Below, piece by piece: positions 22,205 to 51,925 of a stretch of DNA of 64,000 bases. The DNA is from Chloroflexota bacterium (GTDB lineage: Bacteria; Chloroflexota; Dehalococcoidia; Lucifugimonadales; Lucifugimonadaceae): NCBI GenBank assembly GCA_018650845.1, contig JABIFF010000002.1, forward strand, positions 62,001 to 126,000. The letters are read 5' to 3'. A program made the translations under genes and the position numbers. The notes below the pieces were generated by a model. The model searched no databases. It had not been told where the DNA came from and saw only the letters and a program-made list of their open reading frames with translations. How positions within the stretch are numbered: the stretch's first letter is position 1; each line of letters starts with the position of its first letter.

Positions 22205-22318
22205 TTTTCTCTACCCGGACGTATGTACGAGCATTAGTTGGGCAAGAATCTCGGTTGGGTGCGTGCGATAATTTCCTGAAGAAATTTTTCGATCTTCGGC
22301 AGTTTTTGGGGGCAGTGA

Positions 22319-23827
22319 TTGGCGACGCGATACGAGGGCACTATTCACGCTCCTCAGTTTCCGACGGGACTTGAGTGGTTCAACACTGAATCACCGCTGA
22401 CTTGGGACGACCTAAGCGGCCGCCTGGTCATTCTTCATTTTTGGACCTACTGCTGAATTAACTGCATGCATGTACTTCCGCAGTTGCGGAAGCTGGAAGA
22501 AAAGTACGCCGACATTTTGACTGTGATCGGTGTGCACTCGGCAAAGTTCACTTCTGAAAAATCTTCGGAAAATGTTCGAGAAGCAGTTCGCCGATATGGA
22601 ATTGGACATCCTGTAGTTAACGATGCCGAGTTCGAGATTTGGCAGTCGTATGCAGCGCGTGCGTGGCCGACTCTGATGTTTATCGATCCTGCTGCCAAAG
22701 TGATCGGGCGCCATGAGGGCGAATTCCCTGTCGATGCTCTAGACGAAGTCATCGCGGGCATGATCGAAGAGCACGAGCCGTCTGGATTGTTCAAACGTGG
22801 CAAGCTTGATCTCCAGCCCGAAACGAACGTCGATTCCGTACTTTCGTATCCCGGCAAGGTTACTGCAGATGCTGAACGTGAACTTCTGGTTATCTCAGAT
22901 TCCAACAACCATCGTTTGATAGTTACTGACCTTGAAGGAAAAGTCGAAGGAGTTATCGGCAACGGTGAATCGCCGTTAACGACTGGCGATCTTAGCGGTG
23001 TTTACGAATCGCTCGAATTTGATCAACCACTTTTCGACAACCCTCAAGGAGTCGTTATCGATGGCGACACGCTTTACGTCGCCGATGCGGGAACACACAC
23101 GATAGTCAAGGTGAGCATGGTCGCTGGCACTGCTGAAACTATCGCAGGCAACGGTGAGCAATCGCTGTACCGCCACAAGGGTGGCAGTGCACTGAAGGTT
23201 CCGCTCAATTCGCCTTACGATCTTTCTTTGAACGATGGCAGCCTATACATCGCCATGGCTGGGTTCCACCAGCTTTGGTCGATGGATCTGACTGCACAAG
23301 AGGTCGCCCCTTTCGCGGGTGACGGCGGCGAAGACATTGTTGACGATCTAAAAGATTCGGCTCGGCTAGCTCAACCGTACGGAATCGAAGTATCTAACAA
23401 CGCTGTGTTCTTCATCGATAGCGAAACCAGCTCGCTGCGAGTATCTGCCATTGCTGACGAGGGCAGGGTAGTGACTCTGGTCGGAAAGGGCTTGTTCGAT
23501 TTTGGCGATTACGATGGTGTAGGAAAAGAGGCCTTGTTCCAGCATCCGCAAGGGTTAGCTGTGAGCAAGGACACTATCTATATCGCCGATTCGTACAACA
23601 ACAAAATCAAGTCAGTTGCGATCGGTTCACTGCAGGTAAAAACCGTTGCAGGCTCAGGTAAATCAGGCGATATGAACGGTTTCACAACCATCGCTCAATT
23701 CAACGAACCAGCTGGCGTAGCGGTGGCCGGTGATCGCATCTACGTTGCCGATACGAATAATCACAAAATCAAAATTATCGAACTAGACTCCGGCGAGGTT
23801 TACCCGCTTGAGCTAACGGGTCTATAA
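22319..23827 (+). CDS. thioredoxin-like/NHL-repeat protein (NHLRC2-type), probable selenoprotein
   Basis: Read through an in-frame TGA (22454-22456) this is a 502-residue NHLRC2-like protein. Residues 1-160 are a thioredoxin-like domain: P-x-F-P-x-G-L-E-W-F-N-T, then H-F-W-T-Y-C-U-I-N-C-M-H-V-L-P, then the cis-Pro motif A-W-P-T-L-M-F-I-D. About six NHL blades follow (motifs such as I-S-D-S-N-N-H-R-L and V-A-D-T-N-N-H-K-I). U46 replaces the first cysteine of C-I-N-C. The TTG start has GGGGG 6 nt upstream. Relatives with Y-C-C-I-N-C have Cys there, so selenocysteine fits better than a stop. Without readthrough only an N-terminal 45-mer or an ATG 22466 fragment lacking the redox residue would be made. 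No signal peptide, so probably cytosolic. A DUF255 thioredoxin-fold gene follows. Confidence 0.85.
22454..22456 (+). other. in-frame TGA, predicted selenocysteine codon
   Basis: This TGA interrupts an otherwise continuous frame exactly where thioredoxin-like NHLRC2 proteins have the first redox cysteine. Conserved coding sequence flanks it on both sides (H-F-W-T-Y-C before, I-N-C-M-H-V-L-P after). A selA gene in the window shows that the organism can make selenocysteyl-tRNA. Confidence 0.85.
22475..22492 (+). promoter_or_regulatory. candidate bacterial SECIS hairpin
   Basis: CTTCCGC (22475-22481) pairs perfectly with GCGGAAG (22486-22492) around a 4-nt AGTT loop that starts 26 nt after the TGA. 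The 7-bp stem, the small apical loop with G at its second position, and the spacing all agree with known bacterial SECIS rules for SelB binding. The hairpin lies inside coding sequence. Confidence 0.75.
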
Positions 23828-23946: not shown

Positions 23947-26007
23947 ATGGCTAACCGACTGGCGAACGAAACAAGTCCGTACCTTCTGCAGCACAAAGAC
24001 AATCCTGTCGATTGGTACCCGTGGGGCGACGAAGCGCTATCCGCTGCTCGATTGCTCGATAAGCCGATACTGCTCTCAATCGGATATTCATCGTGTCACT
24101 GGTGTCATGTCATGGCGCACGAATCGTTCGAAAACGAGTCGATTGCTTCGTTAATGAACTCAAGTTTCATCAACATCAAAGTCGACCGAGAAGAACTACC
24201 CGACGTCGATTCGATCTACATGACAGCCGTGCAGGCAATGACCGGCTCGGGTGGCTGGCCCCTGACCGTATTTATCACCCCTGACGGACAACCGTTCTTT
24301 GGCGGTACGTACTTCCCCCCTGAAGATCGACCCAACATGGCGGGCTTCCCGCGGCTACTAACCGCTGTCGCTGATGCCTACGCAACAAAGCGCACCGACC
24401 TGCTGGAGAACTCACAGCAAGTGGTCGATGCCATTCGGGAGCAGTCGACGCCAAAGAAGAACGATGGCACGGTAGACGATTCGTTGATTTTCGGCGCATT
24501 CACTCATCTTGTTGGAGCTGCTGATTCCGAAAATGGCGGAACACAGGGCGCACCAAAATTTCCGCAGCCAATGGTTTACGAGTTGATGCTCAGATATTGG
24601 AAACGCACCGGCAGCTCGCAGGTGCTCGATATCGTGAATCTAACGCTTGAAAAAATGGCTCACGGCGGCATTTACGATCAGATCGGTGGCGGCTTCGCGC
24701 GTTACTCCGTAGACGAAGTATGGCTTGTTCCACACTTCGAAAAAATGCTCTACGACAACGCTCAGTTAGTCTCGCTCTACCTACACGCCTACCAGGCAAC
24801 GAAAAAGCCGTTGTACAGGCGAATTGTTGAAGAGACGCTGGAATACGTGACCCGGGAGATGACTCACGCGGCCGGCGGGTTCTACTCGGCGTCAGATGCC
24901 GATTCCGAGGGCGTCGAGGGTAAATTCTTCGTATGGACCTCAGAGGAAATCGATGCAGTGCTCGAACCTTCTGATGCCGAGCTAGCCAAGGCTTACTGGG
25001 GCGTTTCTGAAGAAGGTAATTTCGAAGGCTCGAACATTCTTCATCTGCCAATGTCGCAAGCAGATTTCCTTTCCCGCACTGGTCAGGAACCGCTCGAATT
25101 GTTGGCCGACATCGAACGGGTTCGCGACCTGCTGTACGAAGCACGATCAAAACGCATCGCACCCGGAATCGACGACAAAATCTTGGTTTCGTGGAATGCG
25201 TTGATGCTCAAGGCGTTCGCTGAAGCCGGAGCCGTATTCGAAAATTCTGAATGGATCGCCACAGCTGAGAAGAACGCACGACTGCTGATTGATCAGCTCA
25301 AGGACGAAGAAGGCAGGTTGCTCCACACATGGAAGGCGACCAGCGAGACAGAGGGCGACGCTCGCATACTGGGCTACCTCGACGACCACGCTTACCTGAT
25401 CGACGCTCTGCTAACGCTGTACGAAGCAACGTTCGACTATTCGTACGTGGATGAAGCTCAAGCTCTGGCGAATCAAATGGTGGAACGATTCTGGGATAAG
25501 GACTGGGAAGTTTTCTACGACACTTCGATGGAGCATTCGAAATTGCTCGTAAGGCCTCGTGATGTGCTCGACAACGCACTGCCTTCTGGAGGTGCAATCG
25601 CAGCTCTGGCATTGCAGCGACTCGGCGTTATTACTGGTGAAGCTGACTACGCAGTGAAGGCAGAAGCTTCGATGAGCGCATTGATTCCTCATATGGAACA
25701 AGCGCCTTCTGCGGTTACGTCGTGGCTGGCGGCAGTGGACTTCTTGCGGTCGAACTCACAGGAAGTTGTGCTAATCGGGGACGCTAGCGATCCTGTGATG
25801 GCCGACATGAAGCGTGAACTACGAAAATCGTTCGCTCCGAATACGGTCCTAGCCGGATCATCTGGTACTTCGAGTGACGAATTGGCGTCACCTTTGCTGA
25901 AATCGAGAGATCAGGTGAACGGCAAGGCGACTGCGTACGTTTGCGAAAATTATGCCTGCAAGCTGCCGGTGACCAGCGTTGCCGAAATGGCAGAACTGCT
26001 CAGTTAG
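23947..26007 (+). CDS. DUF255 thioredoxin-domain protein (YyaL/SPATA20 family)
   Basis: A 686-residue protein of the YyaL/spermatogenesis-associated-20 family. The N-terminal thioredoxin-fold domain (about 1-165) has the opening [14 protein letters not shown], the redox motif S-S-C-H-W-C-H-V-M and the [10 protein letters not shown] and G-G-W-P-L-T-V-F segments. The rest is an (alpha/alpha)6-type barrel resembling N-acylglucosamine epimerases, with [11 protein letters not shown] and [10 protein letters not shown]. The biochemical role is not settled. AGGA lies about 5 nt before the ATG. It sits 119 nt after the Sec-type thioredoxin gene, so a shared thiol-redox function is possible. Confidence 0.93.
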
Positions 26008-32026: not shown

Positions 32027-32116
32027 GGAGGGTTCGCATAGTGGCCTAGTGCGCCCGCCTGCTAAGCGGGTTGGGGGTGTTGAGCCTCCTCGCGGGTTCG
32101 AATCCCGCACCCTCCG
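32027..32116 (+). tRNA. tRNA-Ser (anticodon GCU)
   Basis: A 90-nt tRNA with acceptor stem GGAGGGT/ACCCTCC. The anticodon stem is CCCGC/GCGGG with loop CTGCTAA, anticodon GCT at 32061-32063. A long variable arm (a class II feature) and a T-arm CGGGTTCGAATCCCG follow. The discriminator is G and CCA is encoded at 32117-32119. A T-run follows. It reads AGC/AGU serine codons. Confidence 0.97.
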
Positions 32117-32210
32117 CCACTTTTTTGAAGATGTGCTGTAGTTGTGCCCTGTCTCCCTGTGGATAGGATGAAATCTGACGCTGCTTCCTGCTTTGACGCG
32201 TAAATAGCGA

Positions 32211-50144: not shown

Positions 50145-50537
50145 CTACTTGCGGGGAAGAGCCTTCGGGACGATCGAATTGTTGGCTCGTCGGTTATACG
50201 CCTTGCCACCGCCATAATCGAGTTCGGCAATGGTTACGCCGTCACCGCCATCGCCGTATGAGCCGGGATAGTGGCGAGCGACTAGATCACTTTTCGTGAG
50301 AATGTCGCGAGCCAGCTGCTTGAGCACGCCCGATCCGTGACCGTGAATAACTTTGACGATGTGAAGTCGAGAGTTGTAACAGTGCTGGAGATGAATTTTG
50401 ATCTGCGTATCGGCTTCGTGCGCTCGCATACCGTGCAGATCGATCTCGATATCTGGAGCATCGATTCCACCTTGTGAGGATGGTGCCCAACCTTGCTCTG
50501 ATGTCGGCTTTGGCCGTCGTCGTTTTTTAGGACTCAT
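50145..50537 (-). CDS. Smr-domain protein
   Basis: A 130-residue protein that is mostly a stand-alone Smr domain: I-E-I-D-L-H-G-M-R-A-H-E-A, V-K-V-I-H-G-H-G-S-G-V-L-K and the Gly-rich end. Smr domains occur at the C terminus of MutS2 and are nucleases or nucleic-acid binders. A basic N-terminal stretch (K-K-R-R-R-P-K) may contact nucleic acid. ATGA overlap with selA shows cotranscription, but no functional link is known. Confidence 0.88.
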   Translation of the reverse strand: MSPKKRRRPKPTSEQGWAPSSQGGIDAPDIEIDLHGMRAHEADTQIKIHLQHCYNSRLHIVKVIHGHGSGVLKQLARDILTKSDLVARHYPGSYGDGGDGVTIAELDYGGGKAYNRRANNSIVPKALPRK

Positions 50538-51925
50538 TGTGAATCCTGCGATATAGCGAGTTTGATAGCTTCGATCACGGCTTGATCTTGATCGGTCATA
50601 ACCGTTCTAGGATCGAGAAGCACTCGTTCGTTCTCAATTCGGGCAACTACCGCCACCGGGCTTCGTCGCAAGCAAGCCGCAAAATTATCGACGCTGCCTT
50701 GAGGTTCTATCGCTAAGACCGATGTTGGGATGGTTTGACCCGGAAGAGAGCCGCCACCGACCGCAGACCGAGCACCCTCGACCACGCCAGTTCCAGCTTC
50801 CGCTCGCCATCGCTCCGCCGTGGCAGCAATAGCCGATTCATCCTTCGAGATGGAATTCCAGATCGGGATTTCTTCCTCGTGATCGCCCTTCAAATATGAG
50901 ACTAGAGTTGCTGCAATTGCTGAAAGCGTCATCTTGTCGATTCGCACCGCTCTGGCGAGTGGGTGTTTCGAAACGAGATCGACCCAGCTCTTCTCCCCAG
51001 CGATTAGCCCTGCCTGTGGCCCCCCGAGTAGTTTGTCGCCCGAGAAGAGGGTTAGTGCTGCGCCGTCGGAAATTGAATCCTGAACCTGTGGTTCTTGATC
51101 AAGCCCGTACTTGCGAGTATCAATCAAGCAGCCTGAGCCGAGATCGTTGATAACCGGAACTCCGTGTTTTTTGCCCACGGCTACCATGTCGGCAAGCTCC
51201 GGAACGTGGGTAAAACCTTCGACAATGAAATTGCTCGGGTGAACCTTCAATATTGCAGCGGTGCGAGGTGTGATCGCTGCTTCGTAGTCGGCAGCATAAG
51301 TGCGATTCGTAGTGCCAACCTCTATCAATGTGGCGCCGGATTGCCGCATGACGTCGGGAACTCGGAACCCACCACCGATCTCGACAGCTTCACCGCGAGA
51401 AACGATCACTTCGGTTTTGTTTGGATCGGCAGCTACAACAGCAGCGAGAGTGAGCAACACTCCTGAAGCGTTGTTGTTCACTGCGATTCCAGCTTCTGCA
51501 CCGCTGACCTGCGAAAGCAGATCGGAGATATGTGCGTTTCGAGAACCGCGCTTTCCTGAATCGAGATTGAACTCAAGATCAGAGTAGATCGATGCCGAAT
51601 CGGAAGCCGCTTTGGCAACCTTACTGCTTAGAGGAGCACGCCCAAGGTTGGTGTGGAGCACGACGCCTGTCGCGTTGACGACTGGTTTCGGCCACGAACC
51701 CCAAGCTCGATCAGCTCGTTTAGCGATCTCAGCGATCATTTCTTCAACAGCCGGCGATTCGCCAGTGGCTTTGATTTTCGTCCGAGCTTTTCCCAGAACA
51801 TCCCGTGCCAACGTCGTGACAGCATCGTGGGAAAAATTGCGCACGAGTTCTGCGACTTCTTCCGATTGGAGAAGTGCGTCGACCGAAGGTAGTGATCGAT
51901 ATGCAGACTCTGGCATCTCTGGCAA
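50534..51925 (-). CDS. selA: L-seryl-tRNA(Sec) selenium transferase
   Basis: A 463-residue SelA that converts Ser-tRNA(Sec) to Sec-tRNA(Sec) with selenophosphate. It has the full N-terminal domain (Y-R-S-L-P-S-V-D-A-L-L), the core K-P-V-V-N-A-T-G-V-V-L-H-T-N-L-G-R-A-P-L, the phosphate loop V-N-N-N-A-S, D-L-G-S-G and the catalytic Lys in F-S-G-D-K-L-L-G-G-P-Q-A-G. The TTG start has AGGAG 7 nt upstream. selB, selD and selC are not in this window. It supports recoding of the TGA at 22454. Confidence 0.96.
   Translation of the reverse strand: MPEMPESAYRSLPSVDALLQSEEVAELVRNFSHDAVTTLARDVLGKARTKIKATGESPAVEEMIAEIAKRADRAWGSWPKPVVNATGVVLHTNLGRAPLSSKVAKAASDSASIYSDLEFNLDSGKRGSRNAHISDLLSQVSGAEAGIAVNNNASGVLLTLAAVVAADPNKTEVIVSRGEAVEIGGGFRVPDVMRQSGATLIEVGTTNRTYAADYEAAITPRTAAILKVHPSNFIVEGFTHVPELADMVAVGKKHGVPVINDLGSGCLIDTRKYGLDQEPQVQDSISDGAALTLFSGDKLLGGPQAGLIAGEKSWVDLVSKHPLARAVRIDKMTLSAIAATLVSYLKGDHEEEIPIWNSISKDESAIAATAERWRAEAGTGVVEGARSAVGGGSLPGQTIPTSVLAIEPQGSVDNFAACLRRSPVAVVARIENERVLLDPRTVMTDQDQAVIEAIKLAISQDSQ

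Follow-up and report, generated by a model that had tools for sequence, protein, structure and literature searches.

The gene at positions 22319-23827 of the window, by which we mean the whole 64,000-nucleotide stretch of DNA analysed here, is best read as encoding a selenoprotein of the NHLRC2/SOQ1 family that carries a C-U-I-N-C motif, with the UGA at 22454 read by SelB and Sec-tRNA under the guidance of a hairpin, a reading to which we assign a probability of about 0.93. The UGA is conserved, the hairpin covaries and the genome holds Sec machinery, and together these observations argue for actual selenocysteine insertion at this codon. The original prediction had proposed recoding, and that proposal is now supported by the pairing of TGA with Cys codons among relatives, by a hairpin that accompanies TGA and is mostly missing from Cys forms, by selA, selB, selD and tRNA-Sec, and by membership of the protein in the NHLRC2 family. 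The predicted product is very probably a thioredoxin (Trx)/NHL-propeller oxidoreductase. Coordinates of all features are collected in Table 1.

Table 1. Features of the selenoprotein locus and associated genes in the window.
Feature	Position	Strand	Basis
Putative selenoprotein gene of 502 residues starting at TTG; Trx-like domain and NHL propeller	22319..23827	+	Translation, Pfam, model, same-genus starts
GGGGG, putative ribosome-binding site, 6 bases 5' of TTG	22308..22312	+	Position
Trx-like domain, residues 1-155	22319..22783	+	Pfam Thioredoxin_8 at residues 34-127; model
Cys-45, adjoining Sec, equivalent to human Cys-89	22451..22453	+	C 161, G 18, A 8 of 187 Sec forms
TGA, probably read as selenocysteine, residue 46, pairs with human Cys-90	22454..22456	+	Sec reading from the combined evidence
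Cys-49, putative resolving Cys, equivalent to human Cys-93	22463..22465	+	Cys in 187/187 Sec and 55/55 Cys forms
SECIS-like hairpin CTTCCGC-AGTT-GCGGAAG, loop 22482-22485, 18 bases 3' of TGA	22475..22492	+	Pairing and covariation in relatives
NHL beta-propeller, residues 173-502	22835..23824	+	Pfam NHL; model; match to 6gc1/7djk
DUF255/Thioredox_DsbH gene, next downstream of the Sec gene	23947..26007	+	Also a neighbour in other genera of the family
selA, L-seryl-tRNA(Sec) selenium transferase	50534..51925	-	TIGR00474, 516.8 bits, cut-off 267.9

Translation confirmed that a frame opening at TTG 22319 runs to a terminal stop at 23825-23827 with the TGA as its sole internal stop, as had been claimed, and the GGGGG ribosome site expected ahead of the TTG was found. 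Across the TGA the translation reads HFWTYC-U-INCMHVLP, and in alignment the TGA falls at the exact place of the second Cys of CCINC in human NHLRC2 and plant SOQ1, in agreement with the earlier claim that it replaces the first Cys of a C-I-N-C pair; the CC(I/V)NC motif is present in the window protein with Sec for its second Cys. The TTG is the earliest possible start because the codon preceding it is an in-frame TGA, and the start codon lies at this same position in all 14 same-genus loci checked (TTG in 9, ATG in 4 and GTG in 1); we regard the TTG start as credible. The window holds 52 TGA-joined frames with at least 40 codons before and at least 60 after the TGA, and inspection by eye recognised a redox motif only in 22319-23827.

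Mechanical ORF calling returns 22466-23827 only, a 453-residue product from ATG 22466 in which the active site is lost, just as the original prediction had expected of conventional gene calling. That listing is what speaks for taking the UGA as a true stop, with a working product that begins at ATG 22466 and dispenses with the first half of the Trx domain, an arrangement we judge extremely unlikely given that the codons 5' of the UGA are conserved as protein, that Cys forms run continuously through the site, and that a start at residue 50 drops modelled strands 19-21 and 36-42. Mean identity to the window protein, taken over all 281 full-length loci before removal of duplicates, is 0.57 across residues 10-45, ahead of the TGA, and 0.60 across residues 58-140, behind it.

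The codon at residue 46 was followed through relatives at several taxonomic depths. A search of 250 genomes of the window's order, 242 of them with some match at E<=0.001, supplied 136 loci (L001 and L022-L156) with TGA in 122, TGC in 11, TGT in 1 and the site uncovered in 2; nearly all of the full-length matches listed have exactly one TGA. Adding 14 loci of the class brings the set to 150, with TGA in 130, TGC in 17, TGT in 1 and two fragments in which the site is uncovered. Removal of duplicates from the 281 full-length loci, which comprise order and class loci, phylum samples and pattern matches, left 242 relatives in which residue 46 is encoded by TGA in 187, TGC in 48, TGT in 7 and no other codon, a ratio that overstates Sec use since the pattern matches were picked for TGA. 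The TGA/Cys pairing at a single codon that had been proposed as a check is thus seen in both the 150-locus and the 242-relative sets. In an even sample of 301 genomes from the phylum, the window's own genome among them, 56 have a match at E<=1e-60; 43 of these have one internal TGA, 11 have none and 2 are fragments that fail to reach the site, and all 11 TGA-free orthologues carry a Cys codon at residue 46. Both forms also occur in two further phylum samples: matches number 13 among 200 genomes of the phylum to which a Gemmatimonadetes record belongs (TGA 6, Cys 7), and 19 among 296 for the phylum of an Actinomycetota record (TGA 2, Cys 17).

These relatives bear directly on the suggestion that the TGA is a misread TGC or TGT, or a true nonsense mutation in a decaying pseudogene. 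The assemblies are drafts in many contigs and the Cys codons lie one base away from TGA, but 130 of 150 loci share this TGA, both of its flanks are conserved, and the frames are otherwise open, with a further stop (TAG, in L090) in only 1 of the 242 full-length relatives. We regard this explanation as refuted by the relatives, with a negligible residual probability, and the pattern that the original prediction had set against recoding, relatives with decayed frames and no selB/selC, did not appear.

Selenocysteine insertion at the UGA would be guided by the hairpin that begins 18 bases downstream. All seven stem pairs are present in 161 of 186 Sec forms (one of the 187 sequences, with an N in the stretch, was removed) as against 1 of 55 Cys forms, and 25 Sec forms fall short of all seven; counted by stem cells, 94.8% are paired in Sec forms and 40.3% in Cys forms. 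The AGTT loop begins 25 bases past the UGA in the window, and the distance and loop size agree with those of bacterial SECIS elements. The loop codon is TTG in 177 of 186 Sec forms, a codon that accounts for 12% of Leu codons in the remainder of these genes. The outermost stem pair is mostly C-G or T-A, and its two ends covary (p=2.6e-26 by Fisher's test, with related sequences each counted). Where codon 12 is AAA or AAG, C stands with G in 58 sequences, T with A in 73, T with G in 13 and C with A in 1; there, a change between Leu and Phe at one end of the stem is matched at the other by a synonymous change of Lys codon.

In a covariation test on 60 distinct rows, out of 94 candidates, 87.9% of cells were paired and the covariation score was 0.315, neither of which was reached by any of 500 shuffles, and slid versions of the stem were all lower on both pairing and covariation in the same rows. 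Further pair types numbered 11, a count reached by 6 of 500 shuffles, and pairs with changes on both sides numbered 4, which is not above the shuffles (185 of 500 reach it). Taken alone, the window hairpin shows no unusual stability (z -1.18, equalled or bettered by 22 of 200 shuffles), RNAalifold on a diverse set gave a weak structure of 5 pairs at -0.56 kcal/mol, and an Rfam search matched no SECIS model, its single match being PYLIS_4 far under cut-off at E 4.1.

Divergent Sec forms vary the element. The stem is bulged on its 3' side in L145, L203 and L263, where the bulged base resembles the bulged U of the E. coli SECIS, and it has a different sequence or position in L178, L193, L196 and L240; the hairpins of L178 and L145 clearly beat shuffles (matched by 5 and 6 of 200), while those of L203, L263 and L240 do not. 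Folding found no comparable hairpin in L187 and none clear in L222. L187 (4457-4504), with TGA at residue 46 and nested among Cys forms, may be an error, a case of decay or an unusual case.

The hairpin also helps to weigh the idea that the UGA is read through by a near-cognate or suppressor tRNA that inserts Cys, Trp or some other residue. Cys does occupy the site in relatives, and the residue here is assigned from the codon; against this, unguided read-through would not require a hairpin, yet the hairpin persists alongside TGA and is mostly missing where Cys is encoded, and the genome has selA, selB, selD and tRNA-Sec. We consider such read-through highly unlikely. The selA that the original prediction had noticed in the window is well above its model's cut-off (Table 1). 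Elsewhere in the genome are selB (350.2 bits including neighbours, cut-off 242.25), selD (368.3 bits) and a tRNA-SeC with anticodon tca, found at the ends of two contigs; the selD has an in-frame TGA of its own, in TCAG-U-GKLS (L171:1480-1640). A second tRNA-Sec candidate, in the window itself (RF01852, 52.3 bits against a cut-off of 47), proved to be a tRNA-Ser(gct) at 32027-32119, and a serine tRNA that passes the Rfam tRNA-Sec cut-off is a trap for automatic selC calls.

At the scale of the order, selB is found in 213 of 250 genomes at E<=1e-60, 209 of them above cut-off. Among the 134 genomes with a readable codon it accompanies 113 of 122 Sec and 9 of 12 Cys forms (Fisher p=0.076), which shows no clear link; no selB match was found in three Cys genomes of the order (G245, G150 and G012), nor in nine Sec genomes. 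A rule by which the Cys form would mean absence of selB fails on these figures and on those of the class, where selB occurs in 45 of the 56 genomes that carry an orthologue of either form (44 above cut-off). In the genomes behind the pattern matches, whose records carry the labels of other phyla or other Chloroflexi groups or, in one case, just 'bacterium', selB is above cut-off in 20 of 23 and three have lower-scoring matches only.

Sequence and fold both place the window protein in the NHLRC2 family, as the original prediction had held. All 57 aligned members match both Pfam families, Trx_8 followed by NHL, and an AlphaFold2 model built with 57 sequences (mean pLDDT 95.9, pTM 0.93) places residue 46 just ahead of a helix spanning 47-62. 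Foldseek matches covering both domains include human NHLRC2 (6gc1, TM 0.91-0.92 by query, 37% identity) and SOQ1 (7djk, TM 0.93). By eye the protein has no obvious signal peptide, and none of the NCBIfam models listed at E<=0.001 reaches its cut-off. Human NHLRC2 has the Trx-like domain and NHL propeller in one chain and in the same arrangement, and by alignment Sec-46, Cys-49, Cys-45 and Asp-102 correspond to its Cys-90, Cys-93, Cys-89 and Asp-148, the last being the residue of FINCA disease (human numbers counted from CCINC 89-93 as given in the available text of PMC6107167); Asp-102 is invariant in the 57 aligned sequences. The window protein differs in having Sec for Cys-90 and in lacking the C-terminal third domain. 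Plant SOQ1 (7djj, 7djk; E 3.9e-101) shares the Trx and NHL domains and the CCINC motif, but is membrane-bound, includes a HAD domain and one more region at its C-terminus, and carries Cys instead of Sec.

This architecture is compatible with a mechanism in which the modelled Trx-like domain and NHL propeller would lie side by side, as in NHLRC2, with a probable cleft between them by match to 6gc1 and with Sec-46 placed just before the active-site helix that bears Cys-49. The Sec-46 selenolate could attack an oxidised sulphur of a propeller-bound partner, be it a disulphide, sulphenate or peroxide; Cys-49 would then resolve the selenenyl-sulphide, and a general thiol donor could restore the reduced state. 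We would assign attack to Sec-46 and resolution to Cys-49, with Cys-45 optional, because Cys-49 is invariant (187/187 and 55/55) and residue 45 may be C, G or A. The propeller as a partner-binding face is taken from the NHLRC2 paper (PMC6107167), the accessible part of which likewise describes Cys residues in the reduced state and a cleft of negative charge, and holds that the change in SOQ1's likely target is not thiol-disulphide exchange, which counts against the simplest, disulphide version of the mechanism. In the parts available of a 2023 paper on SOQ1, redox activity first 'remains to be determined' and later work is then cited for reducing power passed to the target; on these sources the redox activity of the NHLRC2/SOQ1 family is not settled in the literature.

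Recoding in this family appears to be new as far as the literature searched extends. No published Sec form of NHLRC2/SOQ1 was found among titles and abstract openings, and the sections available of a 2026 inventory of 119 prokaryotic selenoprotein families and subfamilies (PMC13188914) name none as NHL or NHLRC2, which upholds the earlier remark that the family was not an established Sec user. The window family shares with the UxxC Trx-fold bacterial selenoproteins in the accessible part of that inventory (thioredoxin, thiol-disulfide isomerase-like, redoxin) the use of Sec for the N-terminal Cys of CxxC, and differs from them in its fusion to an NHL propeller and in the Cys right before Sec in 161 of 187 forms. 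A reading that bears on novelty rather than on recoding would make the protein a selenoprotein in a subgroup of a catalogued generic family, either the inventory's 'Redoxin family protein' (PF08534 UxxC, representative HEU0032618.1) or the 'Trx-like 1' or 'Prx-like 3' group of the GOS survey. The window protein does narrowly pass the Pfam Redoxin cut-off (28.2 against 26.6 bits), and the generic Trx-like and Prx-like groups described in the available text of PMC2398784, among them 321 'Trx-like 1' and 68 'Prx-like 3' UxxC sequences, could include reads or fragments of the NHLRC2-type Sec form; on the other side, no entry in the accessible inventory, compared by description, names an NHL propeller or NHLRC2/SOQ1 (PMC13188914). 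We consider this assignment unlikely and treat the Sec form of NHLRC2/SOQ1 as a new selenoprotein family of a known kind.

By record label, the Sec form extends to phyla other than the window's. Full-length Sec forms come from records labelled Chloroflexi, NC10/Methylomirabilota, Rokuibacteriota, Gemmatimonadetes, Actinomycetota, Thermoleophilia, Acidobacteria, Bacillota and Proteobacteria, and partial ones from records labelled Coriobacteriia and Egibacteraceae; nearly all of these records are metagenome bins, so single phylum labels may be wrong. The available text of PMC5649159 reports selA and selB in most sponge-symbiont bins. A FastTree phylogeny of the 242 relatives with the motif region masked calls for at least 14 Sec/Cys changes, with several weak inner branches and a direction that is not readable. 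A pattern scan returned at least 119 stretches, and among the matches listed 116 have the TGA within the frame of a Trx-like protein and at the expected residue, the other three (L241, L267 and L270) being judged chance; among these listed matches the 116 divide into 71 of the Trx-NHL type, 38 short Trx-only and 7 cut or short, one of those scored as Trx-only (L213) being a contig-end fragment of the full-length type.

The short proteins make up a group of their own. Among the matches listed, 37 DipZ/ResA-like Trx proteins with TGA (L234, L205, L209, L218 and 33 others of L176-L294) mostly have the motif W-T-[FY]-G-U-I-N-C, and 30 of the 37 listed are from records labelled as Chloroflexi groups, NC10/Methylomirabilis or Rokubacteria. 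They share with the window protein the W-T-x-x-U-x-N-C motif and the Thioredoxin_8/Redoxin domains, and differ in having no propeller (in five that were scanned) and, in several, N-termini that look by eye like export signals. No NCBIfam model listed for the five scanned reaches its cut-off, and the group may be the inventory's 'Redoxin family protein'. The window's own contig also encodes a lipoprotein-like paralogue of DipZ type that has only Cys in its motif (CVNC) and a Thioredoxin_10 domain at its C-terminus (L002:1234-2490).

The gene next downstream encodes a DUF255/Thioredox_DsbH protein, which we take to be SPATA20-like. Of the 29 loci L022-L050, 22 have a homologue, which follows immediately on the Sec gene in 20 and lies about 1 kb off in two (L030 and L033), several loci being cut by the end of the contig or stretch; none was found in the 19 loci L295-L313, nor in six loci of one genus of the family (L036-L040 and L046). 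Among the matches listed, 9 of the 71 full-type pattern loci have this neighbour, six directly behind, two at about 1 kb (L225 and L242) and one at about 1.6 kb (L198), and some of these nine are the same genomes as in the L022-L050 count. For comparison, the accessible part of PMC6107167 reports no conserved neighbours in 7 bacterial genomes. It is tentatively possible, though doubtful, that the Sec form is the widespread bacterial version of NHLRC2/SOQ1 (by label in Chloroflexi, Rokubacteria/NC10, Gemmatimonadetes, Actinobacteria, Acidobacteria and others) and that, with the adjoining DUF255 thioredoxin protein in the window's family, it forms a Sec-dependent thiol repair pair, while Cys versions persist in animals and plants.

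Gene callers that take TGA as a stop would truncate this protein, and within the order the TGA is present in 122 of 136 loci. Mice cannot do without NHLRC2, and FINCA, a fatal disease of humans, involves mutations in it, as reported in the available text of PMC6107167, and the pattern of substitution suggests that in the human protein Cys-90 would be the attacker and Cys-93 the resolver, with Cys-89 probably dispensable. That Sec and Cys replace each other at just one of the three CCINC positions provides evidence for selenol/thiol redox chemistry in a poorly understood family.
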